Positions 19,940-25,395 of a stretch of 64,000 nt of DNA are shown in pieces (within the stretch, counting starts at the first letter, position 1; each line of letters begins with the position of its first letter). The stretch is from assembly GCA_021731365.1 (NCBI GenBank), contig JAKFXL010000004.1, positions 1-64,000 on the forward strand, read 5' to 3'. The position numbers were made by a program, and so were the translations under genes. The notes below the pieces were generated by a model that saw nothing but the letters and a program-made list of their open reading frames with translations, was not told the DNA's origin and searched no databases. The DNA comes from Gammaproteobacteria bacterium. GTDB taxonomy: Bacteria > Pseudomonadota > Gammaproteobacteria > Tenderiales > Tenderiaceae.

Positions 19940-20692
19940 TCAGTTTTTTGCAATCCAGATCAGCGACGCCATCCGGCCTGTCACCGCGTCACGCCGGTAT
20001 GAGTAGAACCGTTCCGCGTCACTGTAGGTACACTCGCCACCACCATAGATAGCCACCACCCCCAGTGCCGCCAGCCGCTGCCGCGCCAGCTGGTAGATAT
20101 CTGCCAGCCAATGGCCATCGGCCACTGGCTTAAATGCCAGGCGGGCATCCGCATGGTGGGCAATAAAGGCGTCGCGCACCTCATCCCCCACCTCAAAGGC
20201 GGTGGGGCCGATGGCCGGGCCGAGCCAGACCAGCAGCTCAGCGGCGGCCACCCCCATGCTCAAAACAGTTGCTTCGATCACCCCATCCAGCAGCCCACGC
20301 CAACCGGCATGGGTTGCCGCCACTACGCTACCCTGACGATCACACAACAACAGTGGCAGACAGTCCGCCGTCATCACCGCACACACGGTATTGGGTAACC
20401 GGGTAAAACTGGCGTCGGCAACGGGAAGCGCAGCCGTTGACGCCGCATCCACCACCACCGTGCCATGCACCTGTTGCAACCAGAGTGGCTCACCGGGCAG
20501 CTGTTGCTGTTGAGAGAGACGGCGGCGATTCTCAGCCACCGCCTCTGGCAGATCACCCACATAGCCCGCCAGATTGAGGCTGGCATAGGGCGGCTGGCTA
20601 ACACCCCCTTGTCGGGTAGTGACCCCGGCACGCACAGCGGCGGGGGCTGGCCAGTCGGGTACCATCCACCCCACAACGGTTTGATCACTCAT
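19940..20692 (-). CDS. pgeF: Peptidoglycan editing factor / multicopper polyphenol oxidase family (YfiH)
   Basis: About 250 residues of the YfiH/DUF152 family, which in E. coli edits wrongly built peptidoglycan precursors. The metal-site segments are MTADCLPLLLCD, ATHAGWRGLL and the late VYGGGECTYSD-like stretch (IYGGGECTYSD). The ATG at 20692 (MSDQTVVG) overlaps the rluD stop; an in-frame ATG at 20704 is possible. rluD-pgeF next to a divergent bamD is the standard gammaproteobacterial arrangement. Confidence 0.9.
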   Translation of the reverse strand: MSDQTVVGWMVPDWPAPAAVRAGVTTRQGGVSQPPYASLNLAGYVGDLPEAVAENRRRLSQQQQLPGEPLWLQQVHGTVVVDAASTAALPVADASFTRLPNTVCAVMTADCLPLLLCDRQGSVVAATHAGWRGLLDGVIEATVLSMGVAAAELLVWLGPAIGPTAFEVGDEVRDAFIAHHADARLAFKPVADGHWLADIYQLARQRLAALGVVAIYGGGECTYSDAERFYSYRRDAVTGRMASLIWIAKN

Positions 20693-21644
20693 TATCGGTT
20701 CCATCCTCTTGTAACAGGGCGACCAGCTGCTGCATATCCTCCGGCAGCGCCGCCTCCCACTCCATCATCTCACCACTGCTGGGGTGTTCCAGCCCCAGGC
20801 GGGCGGCATGCAGCGCCTGGCGTTTAAAGTTACACAGCATATCCGCCAGCGCATCGCTGCAGTCGGGCGGCAACCGCAACCGCTGGCCATACACCTGATC
20901 GCCCACCAGCGGATAGCGGATCTGGGCCATGTGCACACGTATCTGATGGGTACGGCCCGTCTCCAGATCGACCCGGATATGGGTATGCAGACGAAACCGC
21001 TGCATCACCCGGTAGTGGGTCACCGCGTGTTTGCCACTCTCCACCACCGCCATCCGTTTGCGGTCCACCGGGTGGCGTGCAATCGGGGCATCAACTGTGC
21101 CCCCTGCGGTCATCACCCCACAGGCAACCGCCTGATACTGCCGCTTCATCACCCGTGCCTGTAGAAGATCCACCAGATGTTTCTGTGATTTAAGATTACG
21201 TGCCACCGCCAGCAGGCCGCTGGTCTCTTTATCCAACCTATGTACAATACCCGCACGTGGCACCTCGTTGAGTTCCGGGGCATGGTGCAACAGGGCGTTG
21301 ACCAGGGTACCGTCATAGTTACCCGCCGCCGGATGCACTACCATGCCGGCAGGTTTGTTGACGATGATGATATGCTCATCCTCATAAACGATGGAGAGTG
21401 GGATATCCTCCCCCTGCCAGCTCACCTCCTCTTCAGAGGTCGCCTCCAGCTCAATCTGCTCGCCCCCCTCCATTTTATCTTTGGCGCGCCGTTGTTTACC
21501 ATTGACCAATACTTGGCCCGCCTTGATCCACTGCTGCAGACGGGCGCGTGAATAGTCGGGGAACAGTTGGGCCAGTATCTGGTCCAACCGCTGCCCTGAA
21601 TGGTCAACGGGAACTTTAATTGTTAATAATTCTGAAGATGGCAT
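20685..21644 (-). CDS. rluD: 23S rRNA pseudouridine synthase D
   Basis: Makes pseudouridines in helix 69 of 23S rRNA. It has an N-terminal S4 domain (about 10-70, SGQRLDQILAQLFPDYSRAR) and an RsuA/RluA catalytic domain with the active-site Asp in VHRLDKETSGLL and GRTHQIRVHM. The frame extends to 21668, but MPSSELLTIKVPV at 21644 fits homologues better. It is divergent from the BamD-like genes. Confidence 0.93.
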   Translation of the reverse strand: MPSSELLTIKVPVDHSGQRLDQILAQLFPDYSRARLQQWIKAGQVLVNGKQRRAKDKMEGGEQIELEATSEEEVSWQGEDIPLSIVYEDEHIIIVNKPAGMVVHPAAGNYDGTLVNALLHHAPELNEVPRAGIVHRLDKETSGLLAVARNLKSQKHLVDLLQARVMKRQYQAVACGVMTAGGTVDAPIARHPVDRKRMAVVESGKHAVTHYRVMQRFRLHTHIRVDLETGRTHQIRVHMAQIRYPLVGDQVYGQRLRLPPDCSDALADMLCNFKRQALHAARLGLEHPSSGEMMEWEAALPEDMQQLVALLQEDGTDNE

Positions 21645-21765
21645 CGGTTTCTTTACAAAACAGGGCAATATGCCGCACGAAAAGGGGTAAACATGCTAAC
21701 AGATTTCAATCCGCTACCCCCTCACAAATATAGTGGCATACTAGCGTGATGCTGATTCACCATTG

Positions 21766-23061
21766 ATGGTTATGTTAAATATGCAGATACGCAGACAGCT
21801 ACTCGCCTTACTCCTTGCAGCAGGCTTAAGTTTGACCAGCCATGCCGCCGATGAAGGGATTCTGGCCGAGTACAACTATTACGAAACGGGCAAGATTGAG
21901 CTCAATGCCGGAAACTATCAGCAGGCGATCACCCATTTTACCAACCTGCAGAAGCGTTACCCCGACAGCCCCTACATCCCTCAGGCACTTTTAGAGTGTG
22001 CCTACGCCCACTACAAACTGGAACAGGCGGATGATGCCATTGAGCTACTCCAGGGATTTTTAACTGCCGAGAACAGACATCCACATAAACCTTATGCTTT
22101 TTACCTTGCCGGTCTGGCCAAGTATCAGGAGGCCCTTGGGCGCATAGAGAACGCCAAGACCAACGAAGATGAAAACAGCGCCCGTGCCAGTACCCAGCAG
22201 GCTATCGACTACTTTGGCCAGCTGGTGGATAAGTTTCCTGGCAGCCAATACAGCGATGATAGCCGCAAAAAGACCACCTACCTGCTGGAAAAACTGGTCA
22301 CTCATCGCATCAAGCTGGAGGAGCTGAACGCCAGCCGCAGCCGTTTAAAACAGATTCAGGTTGAAAGCGATCAGGCCATTGTCTGGCTGCTCAAACAGCC
22401 CGCCGACCAATACACCCTACAGCTGGTCCGCAGCCCCGACTACGACACCGTCTTTATGATCTCCCTCCAGTACAAACTAGAAAAAGAGGCCATCATCATC
22501 GAAACCGTGGGCGAAGAGGGCAAATTTTTCACCCTCTTTTATGGTGTCTATCCCAGCAAGGGCGAGGCACTCCTGGCAGGCAGCAATCTGCCCGGTGCCA
22601 TTCTTGAGGCCCAGCCACTGGTACGTGAGCTGGCCTCCGTGCAGACAGAGATTACGGGGGATGTATCCCGCAAGATCGCAGACAACCCATCAGAAGAGTC
22701 CGTCACTGAATCAGTCCGTACCACAGAGTCGACACCTAAAAGCAGCATCCAGATCCCCACCGAACTCTGGCTGATGACCCAAAACCCCATGGCCTACACC
22801 GTACAGTTAATGGGTTCAGGCAGCGAACGCGCCGTACATGCCTTCATTAACGAGCACAATCTTGCAGACCAGACCACCTACTACCGCAGCCTGCGCAAAG
22901 ATGGCAGCAGCTGGTTCTCATTGCTGTACGGCAGTTATATCGATAAAACGGCGGCCATTGAAGCGGCACAGCAGATGGGCATCGCCCTTGGCATTGAGCA
23001 GCCCTGGATCAGGCGCTTTCAGGGTGTCCAGAACGAAATCGAAAGCAGCAACAAACCGTGA
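21766..23061 (+). CDS. BamD-like TPR protein with two SPOR domains
   Basis: About 431 residues. A signal peptide without a lipobox (RRQLLALLLAAG to SHA) is followed by BamD-like TPR repeats (about 30-205; YYETGKIELNAGNYQQAI, LQKRYPDSPY) and two SPOR domains, about 215-292 (YTLQLVRSP, FTLFYGVYPSK) and 343-425 (YTVQLMGSGSE, WFSLLYGSY). SPOR domains bind denuded septal glycan. ATG starts at 21766, 21772 and 21781 are all possible; the last gives the tightest signal peptide. It is the first of three BamD-type genes and its stop overlaps the next start. Confidence 0.8.
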   Translation: MVMLNMQIRRQLLALLLAAGLSLTSHAADEGILAEYNYYETGKIELNAGNYQQAITHFTNLQKRYPDSPYIPQALLECAYAHYKLEQADDAIELLQGFLTAENRHPHKPYAFYLAGLAKYQEALGRIENAKTNEDENSARASTQQAIDYFGQLVDKFPGSQYSDDSRKKTTYLLEKLVTHRIKLEELNASRSRLKQIQVESDQAIVWLLKQPADQYTLQLVRSPDYDTVFMISLQYKLEKEAIIIETVGEEGKFFTLFYGVYPSKGEALLAGSNLPGAILEAQPLVRELASVQTEITGDVSRKIADNPSEESVTESVRTTESTPKSSIQIPTELWLMTQNPMAYTVQLMGSGSERAVHAFINEHNLADQTTYYRSLRKDGSSWFSLLYGSYIDKTAAIEAAQQMGIALGIEQPWIRRFQGVQNEIESSNKP

Positions 23062-24026
23062 ATAGCCACCTGTATAGATTGGCCCCACTCTTTCTCAGTG
23101 CCGTTCTGCTCAGCGGATGTATTACCGTTCCCTCCACACCATTGCCAGAGCCATGGTCGGCAGAACATTATTACGATGCGGCCCGTCAGGCACAGGCCAG
23201 CGGCGACTACAGTGATGCATTAAAGCAGCTGGCCGATCTTAAACAGCGCCACCCAGAGAGCCCATACGCCAGACTGGTGGCCATTGAGAGCAGCTATGCC
23301 CACTACCAGAGCGGAAACTATCTGGCGGCCATCCACTCAGCAGATCAACAGATCGCCGAGCAACCCGATGCCGGTAGCCTTGACTACGCCTGGTACCTGA
23401 AGGGGATCGCCCACCTCAAACTCACCCACCAGAACGGCCAGTTTGATGCCAACAACAGCCGTGCTGCCTACCAGAGCTTTGCAACGCTGGCACAAACGTT
23501 TCCGGCAAGCCAGTACCGGAACGAAGCACTGCAACAGCTCCAGCCACTCCGTCTCCAGCTGGCTGACCACGAACTCGAGACCATTCATGCCCTGTTGCAA
23601 CAGGGCAACCAGTCAGGGGCCCGCGAACGTGCCGCCTATCTGGCCAAGAACTATCCCGATACCACTGCCGCCAACGCTGCCCTGGTCATCCTGCATAGTG
23701 ACAACCATAACAAGACAGTCAGTCAGCAGCACACAACGTGGCTGCTACAACAGGCACCTGACCACTACACCCTCCAGATGGCCGGCACCAGCGACCAAGA
23801 ACGGCTTGAGGCACTGATCGCCCGTGCGCCTGAACAGCTGATCTGGTATCAGCGCCCGGCACAGGGGCGGCTCTGGTATACCCTGCTCTACGGTCATTAC
23901 GGCAGTGCTGCCGAGGCAGAGGCGGCCATCCCCGCACTCAAAGCGCTCTTTGCCATTGATGAAGCGTGGGTACAACCATTTGCAACCTTGCAAAAAAGCC
24001 TTCTTAATGCTGATGATGGCCACTGA
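23058..24026 (+). CDS. BamD-like lipoprotein with one SPOR domain
   Basis: A 322-residue lipoprotein with lipobox LLSGC (Cys21). TPR repeats cover about 33-190 (YYDAARQAQASGDYSDAL, LKQRHPESPYARL), and a C-terminal SPOR domain runs 237-315 (YTLQMAGTSDQE, WYTLLYGHYGS). It starts with GTG overlapping the previous stop (GTGA), so it is translationally coupled. It looks like a paralogue of both its neighbours. Inferred role: an outer-membrane-anchored partner at division sites, perhaps in BAM or peptidoglycan coordination. Confidence 0.8.
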   Translation: MNSHLYRLAPLFLSAVLLSGCITVPSTPLPEPWSAEHYYDAARQAQASGDYSDALKQLADLKQRHPESPYARLVAIESSYAHYQSGNYLAAIHSADQQIAEQPDAGSLDYAWYLKGIAHLKLTHQNGQFDANNSRAAYQSFATLAQTFPASQYRNEALQQLQPLRLQLADHELETIHALLQQGNQSGARERAAYLAKNYPDTTAANAALVILHSDNHNKTVSQQHTTWLLQQAPDHYTLQMAGTSDQERLEALIARAPEQLIWYQRPAQGRLWYTLLYGHYGSAAEAEAAIPALKALFAIDEAWVQPFATLQKSLLNADDGH

Positions 24027-24103
24027 TGCTGCGACAACCCCAACCCAGCTATGCTAGGCTACGGCACCTTTAACCTACACCATTCACAACACCGAAACAG
24101 ACA

Positions 24104-24859
24104 ATGTCACTGATAAAATCACTTACACCACTGCTGCTCATCACCCTTATGTTAGGTGGTTGCGCCACTGCCGATCTCGACCCCACCAAATGGGCCGCTG
24201 AACGCTTTTACAACGAAGCCAAACATGCCCTTGACAACAACGACTACGAAATCGCCATCAAACGCTACGAGGATCTGGAGATCCACCACCCCTTCAGCCC
24301 CTATACCCAGCAGGCACAGCTTGAGATCGGCTACGCCTATTACAAATACGATGAACCGGACTCCGCCATCGCCGCTGCCGACCGCTACATCAAACTCTAC
24401 CCCCGCGCTGACAACGTTGACTACGCCTACTACCTGCGGGGTCTGGCCAGTTTTGAACGGGGCCTCAGCACGCTCGATCTGGCCCTTGGGCTGGATATCA
24501 CCAAACGTGAACCCAAGGCCGCCAAAAATGCCTTTATCTACTTTGAAGAGCTGATTAAACGTTATCCTGACAGCCACTATGGTGATGATGCCAAGCGGCG
24601 GATGGTTGACCTGCGTAACCGTCTGGCAGCCTATGAGCTGCATGTTGCCCACTATTATATGCGCCGTGGTGCCCACCTCTCCGCCGTCAACCGCTGCAAA
24701 AACATACTGGAAAACTACCCACAAACCCCCTCCATCCCCGATGCACTGGTGACAATGGCAGAGGCCTACCAGCAGCTAGGCATTCACGATCTGGCTAACG
24801 ATACACGCCAGGTAATACAGCTCAATTACCCTGACAAAATCAGTGCAATTCACCCCTAA
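24104..24859 (+). CDS. bamD: Outer membrane assembly lipoprotein BamD
   Basis: Essential lipoprotein of the beta-barrel assembly machine. The 251-residue protein has lipobox LGGCA (Cys20) and five TPR-like repeats, beginning with WAAERFYNEAKHALDNNDYE and IHHPFSPYTQQAQ. Length and motifs match true BamD, unlike the two SPOR-bearing paralogues just upstream. It sits 77 nt after the second one, so it may have its own promoter in that gap. Confidence 0.95.
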   Translation: MSLIKSLTPLLLITLMLGGCATADLDPTKWAAERFYNEAKHALDNNDYEIAIKRYEDLEIHHPFSPYTQQAQLEIGYAYYKYDEPDSAIAAADRYIKLYPRADNVDYAYYLRGLASFERGLSTLDLALGLDITKREPKAAKNAFIYFEELIKRYPDSHYGDDAKRRMVDLRNRLAAYELHVAHYYMRRGAHLSAVNRCKNILENYPQTPSIPDALVTMAEAYQQLGIHDLANDTRQVIQLNYPDKISAIHP

Positions 24860-24870
24860 GGAGAATCGTT

Positions 24871-25395
24871 ATGTGGGACTTTTTTGAAACCGTACGCCAC
24901 CGCCACTCCGTGCGTTGTTACCAGAGTGATATGCCGGTAGAAAAAGAGAAGTTGCACGCCATCCTGGAGACGGCCTGTAGCGCCCCCTCCGCTGGCGACC
25001 TGCAAGCGTATAAAATCATCGTTGTCAGCAATCAAGAGAAACGTCTGGCACTTGCCGATGCCGCTGAAGGACAGACATTTATCTCCGCAGCGCCCATTGC
25101 ACTCATCTTCTGTGCCGAACCACAACGCTCAGCCACACAATATGGTGAACGGGGCCAAAAACTCTACGCCATCCAGGACACCACCATTGCAGCCGCCTAC
25201 GCCCAGCTCGCCGTTGTGGCTGCGGGCATGGGTTCCACCTGGGTCGGTTATTTTGATGAGGAGAAGGTCCGCGACATTCTCCAGATTGAAAGCACACTCA
25301 CACCCATCGCCATGCTCAGCCTCGGCTATCCGGCTGAGCTGCCAGAGCCAACCACACGCCGCCGGCTTGATGAGATTGTCAGCCAGATAGAGTAA
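24871..25395 (+). CDS. Nitroreductase family flavoprotein
   Basis: A 174-residue FMN-dependent nitroreductase-fold protein. FMN-contacting segments are RHSVRCYQ near the N-terminus, APSAGDLQAYK (about 37-47) and the C-terminal GYPAELPEP with Arg residues following. It starts 11 nt after the bamD stop with AGGAGAATCGTT in front, so it is probably in the same transcript. The physiological substrate cannot be told. Confidence 0.85.
   Translation: MWDFFETVRHRHSVRCYQSDMPVEKEKLHAILETACSAPSAGDLQAYKIIVVSNQEKRLALADAAEGQTFISAAPIALIFCAEPQRSATQYGERGQKLYAIQDTTIAAAYAQLAVVAAGMGSTWVGYFDEEKVRDILQIESTLTPIAMLSLGYPAELPEPTTRRRLDEIVSQIE

Follow-up and report, generated by a model that had tools for sequence, protein, structure and literature searches.

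Two genes between rluD and bamD in the window (the whole 64,000-nucleotide stretch that was analysed) encode proteins, P1 and P2, in which a BamD-like TPR body is joined to SPOR domains of the DamX type. BamD is an essential outer-membrane assembly protein, and SPOR domains bind denuded septal glycan. We consider it probable, at roughly 0.6, that P1 and P2 are septum-targeted TPR adapters, derived from an old BamD duplicate that was fused to DamX-type SPOR domains. We infer that they bind glycan, locate to the septum and recruit partners there: the lipid anchor of P2 would keep it in the outer membrane while its SPOR domain grips denuded septal glycan, and P1 would be soluble in the periplasm and carry two such domains. 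Together they would bridge the outer membrane and the remodelled septal wall, their TPR surface would recruit partners in a DamX- or CpoB-like way rather than act as BamD, and the BamD job would fall to the product of the third gene, P3.

Organization of the locus and domain content

As the preliminary description had stated, three consecutive BamD-like TPR genes stand opposite rluD (Table 1); the Pfam YfiO/BamD family was found in all three products, with E-values of 1.4e-28 (P1), 1.2e-36 (P2) and 5.3e-66 (P3). The gene adjoining rluD we take to be pgeF/yfiH, from the established rluD-yfiH pairing. P2 and P3 are spaced by 77 bases, and no terminator-like site was found in this gap. A sigma-E-like promoter 157 bases 5′ of P1 was dropped, as it was unconserved in 19 other loci.

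Table 1. Features of the rluD-bamD region (positions in the window)
Feature	Position	Strand	Evidence
Presumed pgeF/yfiH, adjoins rluD	19940..20704	-	
rluD, divergent neighbour, marks standard bamD position	20685..21668	-	ORF and neighbourhood comparison
P1, secreted BamD-like TPR protein, two DamX-type SPOR domains, 431 aa	21766..23061	+	Profile and structure matches
P1 TPR part, ~3.5 repeats	21862..22344	+	Pfam YfiO residues 34-186; AlphaFold helices 26-193
P1 SPOR1, residues ~210-296	22393..22653	+	DamX 2lfv match, E 3.8e-7; missed by Pfam SPOR model
P1 SPOR2, residues ~342-425	22789..23040	+	Pfam SPOR 6.5e-9; DamX 2lfv 2.1e-4
GTGA, 4 bases shared by P1 stop and P2 start	23058..23061	+	Sequence
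P2, BamD-like TPR lipoprotein (predicted), one DamX-type SPOR domain, 322 aa	23058..24026	+	Profiles, AlphaFold, Foldseek
P2 signal sequence, lipobox LSGC, Cys21, +2 residue Ile	23058..23120	+	Read from sequence
P2 TPR part, residues 35-214, BamD fold	23160..23699	+	Pfam YfiO; Foldseek BamD
P2 SPOR, residues ~230-314; Q240/W304 = DamX Q351/W416	23745..23999	+	DamX match; alignment
P3, true BamD	24104..24859	+	TIGR03302 1.3e-81; BamD-specific residues kept
Nitroreductase-family gene, 3′ of bamD in many of the compared genomes	24871..25395	+	Family read from sequence

All three products scored above the 81.4-bit cut-off of the NCBIfam BamD model TIGR03302 (P1, 110.7 bits; P2, 149.4 bits; P3, 273.7 bits). 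P3 has a full-length model match, a lipobox and all the listed BamD contact residues, and its identification as the true BamD stands. The TPRs of P2 are those of BamD by sequence (149.4 bits) and by fold, since Foldseek aligned them with the BamD subunit in solved BAM complexes of E. coli (E 4e-10; TM-score of ~0.74-0.80 on the target). P2 is predicted to be an outer-membrane lipoprotein, and its lipobox Cys is present in 22 of 24 aligned homologues. P1 has no lipobox, and its TPR part matches BamD only to about residue 190; the AlphaFold model has seven TPR helices and no final TPRs, so that P1 has neither the five TPRs nor the lipid anchor of a BamD. In the two AlphaFold models (mean pLDDT 87.4 and 85.6), TPR helices are followed by SPOR folds in P1 and P2 alike.

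Pfam reported a single SPOR domain in P1, at the C-terminus, and one in P2 (1.2e-10). The NCBIfam DamX model matched P1 twice, in separate stretches, and P2 once, and a solved-structure search returned DamX (2lfv) for both SPOR domains of P1 and for that of P2 (4.2e-8), with no other solved SPOR domain matched. Judged by these matches, SPOR1 of P1 is real despite the Pfam miss. A secreted first protein with two SPOR domains, and a second that is a lipoprotein with one and overlaps the first at GTGA, had both been proposed from the sequence and were recovered here. The description had staked itself in advance on SPOR profiles finding their targets and on the TPR parts being BamD-like, and both were found.

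Residues and type of the SPOR domains

Residues Q351, S354 and W416 of DamX are needed for septal localisation, the side chain of S354 itself being dispensable, and in the RlpA complex a Gln and a basic patch contact denuded glycan (PMC6895207). The P2 equivalents of Q351 and W416, namely Q240 and W304, are the same in all 23 homologues. Two residues after W304 a basic residue, Arg, is present in 22 of the 23, the exception being the window's P2, which has Gln. Both the glycan-site Gln and Trp are present in the P2 SPOR domain and in P1 SPOR2; P1 SPOR1 of the window keeps the Gln and has Leu at the W416 position, and its orthologues at two other loci (L045 and L048) keep the Trp. The Gln of P2 and the missing Trp of P1 SPOR1 count against the adapter reading.

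A profile built on the SPOR domain of P2 recovered DamX of many genomes and did not recover FtsN, DedD or RlpA of the same genome. By sequence, the SPOR domains of P1 and P2 are of the DamX type; a SPOR tree was too short to place their source. Targeting of P1 and P2 to denuded septal glycan, which had been predicted from the domains, is well supported by the DamX-type match and the conserved key residues.

P1 and P2 could instead be general outer membrane-peptidoglycan tethers that read amidase-trimmed glycan anywhere and have no division role. P2 would suit such a task, since it combines a lipoprotein anchor with a wall-binding domain across a short linker only, and no partner surface stands out on the TPR part. 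We nevertheless regard this as quite improbable, as DamX-type SPOR domains are septal in E. coli (PMC6895207), a TPR array would be superfluous for tethering, and P1 has no lipid anchor.

Distribution among gammaproteobacterial genomes

The array of rluD, one or more divergent BamD-SPOR genes, bamD and a nitroreductase gene recurs across the window's family, that of Candidatus Tenderia, and is present in Candidatus Tenderia sp. BWSM_60. A double-SPOR P1 is also found in two genera of this family (G001 and G003). The genus holding most of the relatives has P2 only, with an additional unlinked copy in two of the genomes (L050 and L084); these copies follow genes that by eye are ubiH/visC-like oxidoreductases, and their neighbours gave no functional hint. 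In one genome, G008, the locus is rearranged and no BamD-SPOR gene stands beside bamD.

When 275 gammaproteobacterial genomes were drawn, full-length BamD-SPOR proteins were found in six families (f1, f22, f23, f69, f73 and f137), and in each of them the gene adjoins bamD, between rluD and bamD. A second draw of 369 genomes added two genomes and no new family. The total is 16 genomes, the window's own and G001 included, among about 370 sampled gammaproteobacterial genomes, in sampling searches from which copies may escape; in the 369-genome draw, the strict threshold excluded even the array of the window itself. Outside the window's family, the matches listed included three environmental Gammaproteobacteria (L088, L090 and L106), and a phylum-wide survey gave zero matches at a strict threshold and was uninformative. 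In some genomes the BamD-SPOR gene overlaps bamD or ends within tens of bases of it. Because the same array recurs in other genera and families, neither an assembly error nor chance can account for it.

Several related arrangements were seen at other loci. The BamD-SPOR gene of one family is preceded by a gene for a further BamD-like lipoprotein, the third in tandem, whose C-terminus was not recognised as SPOR (L199, 2554-3795; L106, 3606-4901). Tandem BamD-like genes without SPOR adjoin rluD in G045 (L060, 80-889 and 925-3225), and a short second BamD-like ORF, possibly a degraded copy, lies upstream of the BamD-SPOR gene in G146 (L197, 6569-7114). Genome G024, which has no BamD-SPOR gene, encodes a lipoprotein, Sel1/TPR-like by eye, with a DamX-type SPOR domain, convergent to the bamD operon (L061, 4453-5322), perhaps a parallel invention.

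Origin and selection

A tree of 62 TPR sequences separated 42 true BamDs from 20 SPOR-associated copies, two tandem copies without SPOR included, with a split support of 99/100. A recent duplication inside the window's family, modelled by grouping its BamD with its BamD-SPOR proteins, was rejected (p-AU 0.031). Because the SPOR-linked TPRs stand apart from all true BamDs, they form an old paralogous lineage; given the long branches in the tree, a single old origin is favoured by these sequences, not proven.

In close pairs, dN/dS was mostly 0.07-0.34 in both the TPR and SPOR parts, with one low-divergence pair at 0.44, as against 0.02-0.11 in BamD. By this measure the SPOR-linked copies are under purifying selection and less constrained than BamD. 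Long branches, and a stop codon within the matched stretch in G146, might suggest functionless, decaying tandem duplicates of bamD that happened to gain SPOR. With dN/dS well below 1 in TPR and SPOR alike, invariant SPOR residues and retention in six families, this very improbable account is largely refuted by selection and conservation.

BamA-contact residues and the relation to BAM

BamA binding by E. coli BamD has its hotspots at Y184 and in the salt bridges that R94 and R97 form (PMC11592675), and R197 forms a salt bridge with E373 of BamA (PMC6529637); the substitutions Y185A and V181A left the binding to BamA no weaker (PMC11592675). We compared these residues, in E. coli numbering, between 67 true BamDs and 24 single-SPOR homologues. 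Position 184 is aromatic in 66/67 BamDs and Tyr in 4/24 single-SPOR homologues, and position 97 is basic in 63/67 and 2/24, respectively. Y185 is present in all 67 BamDs and none of the 24, and together with R188, A190, N196, V181 and R135 belongs to a set found in 76-100 percent of BamDs and in zero of the 24. Since BamA binding was no weaker with Y185A or V181A, the absence of these two residues shows how far the copies have diverged from BamD, and does not amount to losing a contact that has been measured. TPR structural positions were retained in the SPOR-linked copies (median 67 percent over 67 conserved positions). P2 has A184, L185, Q188, Q94 and A97 and thus lacks the BamA hotspots; R197 is kept in 14/24 single-SPOR homologues, P2 among them. 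The AlphaFold model of P1 stops short of the hotspot helix. With the hotspots lost and the last TPRs of P1 missing, P1 and P2 are not expected to occupy the place of BamD on BamA, to judge from sequence and model. Because both exceed the TIGR03302 cut-off though the contact residues are lost, automatic pipelines are likely to call both BamD.

The preliminary description had suggested that outer-membrane assembly, or a BamD-like scaffold, is brought to the division site. The scaffold part fits better with the present results, and the assembly part is weakened by the lost BamA-contact residues and the missing C-terminal TPRs of P1. In its stronger form, the assembly part would make the locus a dedicated module coupling outer-membrane assembly to septal wall remodelling: P2, and P1, would use SPOR as an address and deliver BAM, or its unfolded substrates, to the septum, with BAM subunits or outer-membrane protein (OMP) signals bound by the TPR part. 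Such a module would encode in dedicated proteins the coupling of wall to BAM that E. coli obtains through direct binding of BAM to the wall. The BamD origin and fold, the constant position directly 5′ of bamD, which hints at a BAM-linked role, and the R197 kept in 14/24 homologues argue for it. The position and R197 also count against the adapter reading, as does the lack of any new strongly conserved TPR surface pointing to a partner among the SPOR-linked homologues. It is also consistent with reports that E. coli BAM binds peptidoglycan, that OMP insertion peaks at division sites (PMC9242858) and that BAM is enriched at midcell (PMC8620860). We consider delivery of BAM or its substrates unlikely, however, because both BamA hotspots are lost, P1 has no C-terminal TPRs, a true BamD stands beside P1 and P2, and a correlation with BamC loss failed its control. 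In sum, loss of the hotspots shifts the balance towards the wall/Tol-Pal side of constriction, and the constant bamD neighbourhood shifts it towards serving BAM.

The BamC correlation concerned an apparent replacement of BamC. BamC was detected in 6/13 BamD-SPOR genomes versus 173/262 others, and several BamD-SPOR genomes, the window's included, have an N-terminal BamC remnant of 90-101 aa after dapA. In the control, many genomes negative for both BamC and BamD-SPOR had the same short lipoprotein at the dapA locus, so the link was dropped. At the dapA-bamC-purC locus of many Gammaproteobacteria, a lipoprotein of 57-130 aa resembles the BamC N-terminus and misses both globular domains; examples are L241 (this genome, G000:C21, reverse complement 2361-2636), L231, L235, L236, L243, L244 and L245. 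One BamC globular domain is kept at L238 and L242.

Discussion

An open question is how the growth of the outer membrane is coordinated with that of the septal wall in Gram-negative bacteria. Our results suggest that P1 and P2 are an undescribed adapter between wall and outer membrane during division. What is new is the joining of SPOR domains to a body derived from BamD; BamD and SPOR proteins as such are known, and no description of BamD-SPOR proteins was found in the open-access literature, to which the search was confined. An assembly-subunit fold and a septal-wall address in one chain, kept in six families, offer a direct handle on the question whichever partner is bound. The same genome also encodes DamX, FtsN, DedD, RlpA and a CpoB-like protein (names by sequence reading), so P1 and P2 are additions and not replacements.

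Two further SPOR proteins were noted in this genome: one with an N-terminal SPOR domain followed by a beta-barrel-like region, possibly a wall-anchored outer-membrane protein (L009, G000:C13, 1408-3066), and one in which, by reading, a C-terminal SPOR domain lies behind an L,D-transpeptidase-like (YkuD-like) domain (L007, G000:C44, 1447-2325).

Among known systems, P1 and P2 resemble BamD (YfiO, ComL), a BAM subunit, in TPR fold and sequence, in the lipoprotein signal of P2 and in the gene position adjoining rluD. They differ from it in the SPOR fusion, the loss of BamA-contact residues and the additional presence of a true BamD, and P1 also in the absence of C-terminal TPRs and a lipid anchor. 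With the E. coli division protein DamX they share the SPOR type, the WLxxQ lead-in, the YTLQ motif and the PW-x-R/K end; DamX in this genome and its relatives, however, is a separate ATPase-like protein, whereas P1 and P2 carry BamD-type TPRs and are placed in the periplasm or outer membrane. CpoB (YbgF), the TPR adapter of Tol-Pal and PBP1B, is likewise a periplasmic TPR adapter, and by analogy P1 and P2 likely have a role resembling that of CpoB at the wall-outer-membrane interface. CpoB has no SPOR domain, the genome has its own CpoB-like gene (L043), and the sequence match is weak (tol_pal_ybgF model, 48.9 bits for P1 and 19.9 bits for P2, below the cut-off of 90.1). Finally, outer-membrane assembly is linked with the cell wall in E. 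coli, where BAM subunits bind the wall (PMC9242858), and in Caulobacter, where Pal sits in the BAM complex (PMC3359395). E. coli OMPs are inserted mainly at young wall, as binding to mature wall inhibits BAM (PMC9242858), and this, with the enrichment of BAM at midcell (PMC8620860), gives a reason for a device like P1 and P2. There, BAM subunits or Pal touch the wall themselves; P1 and P2, as proteins derived from BamD, would do so through a SPOR domain dedicated to the task.
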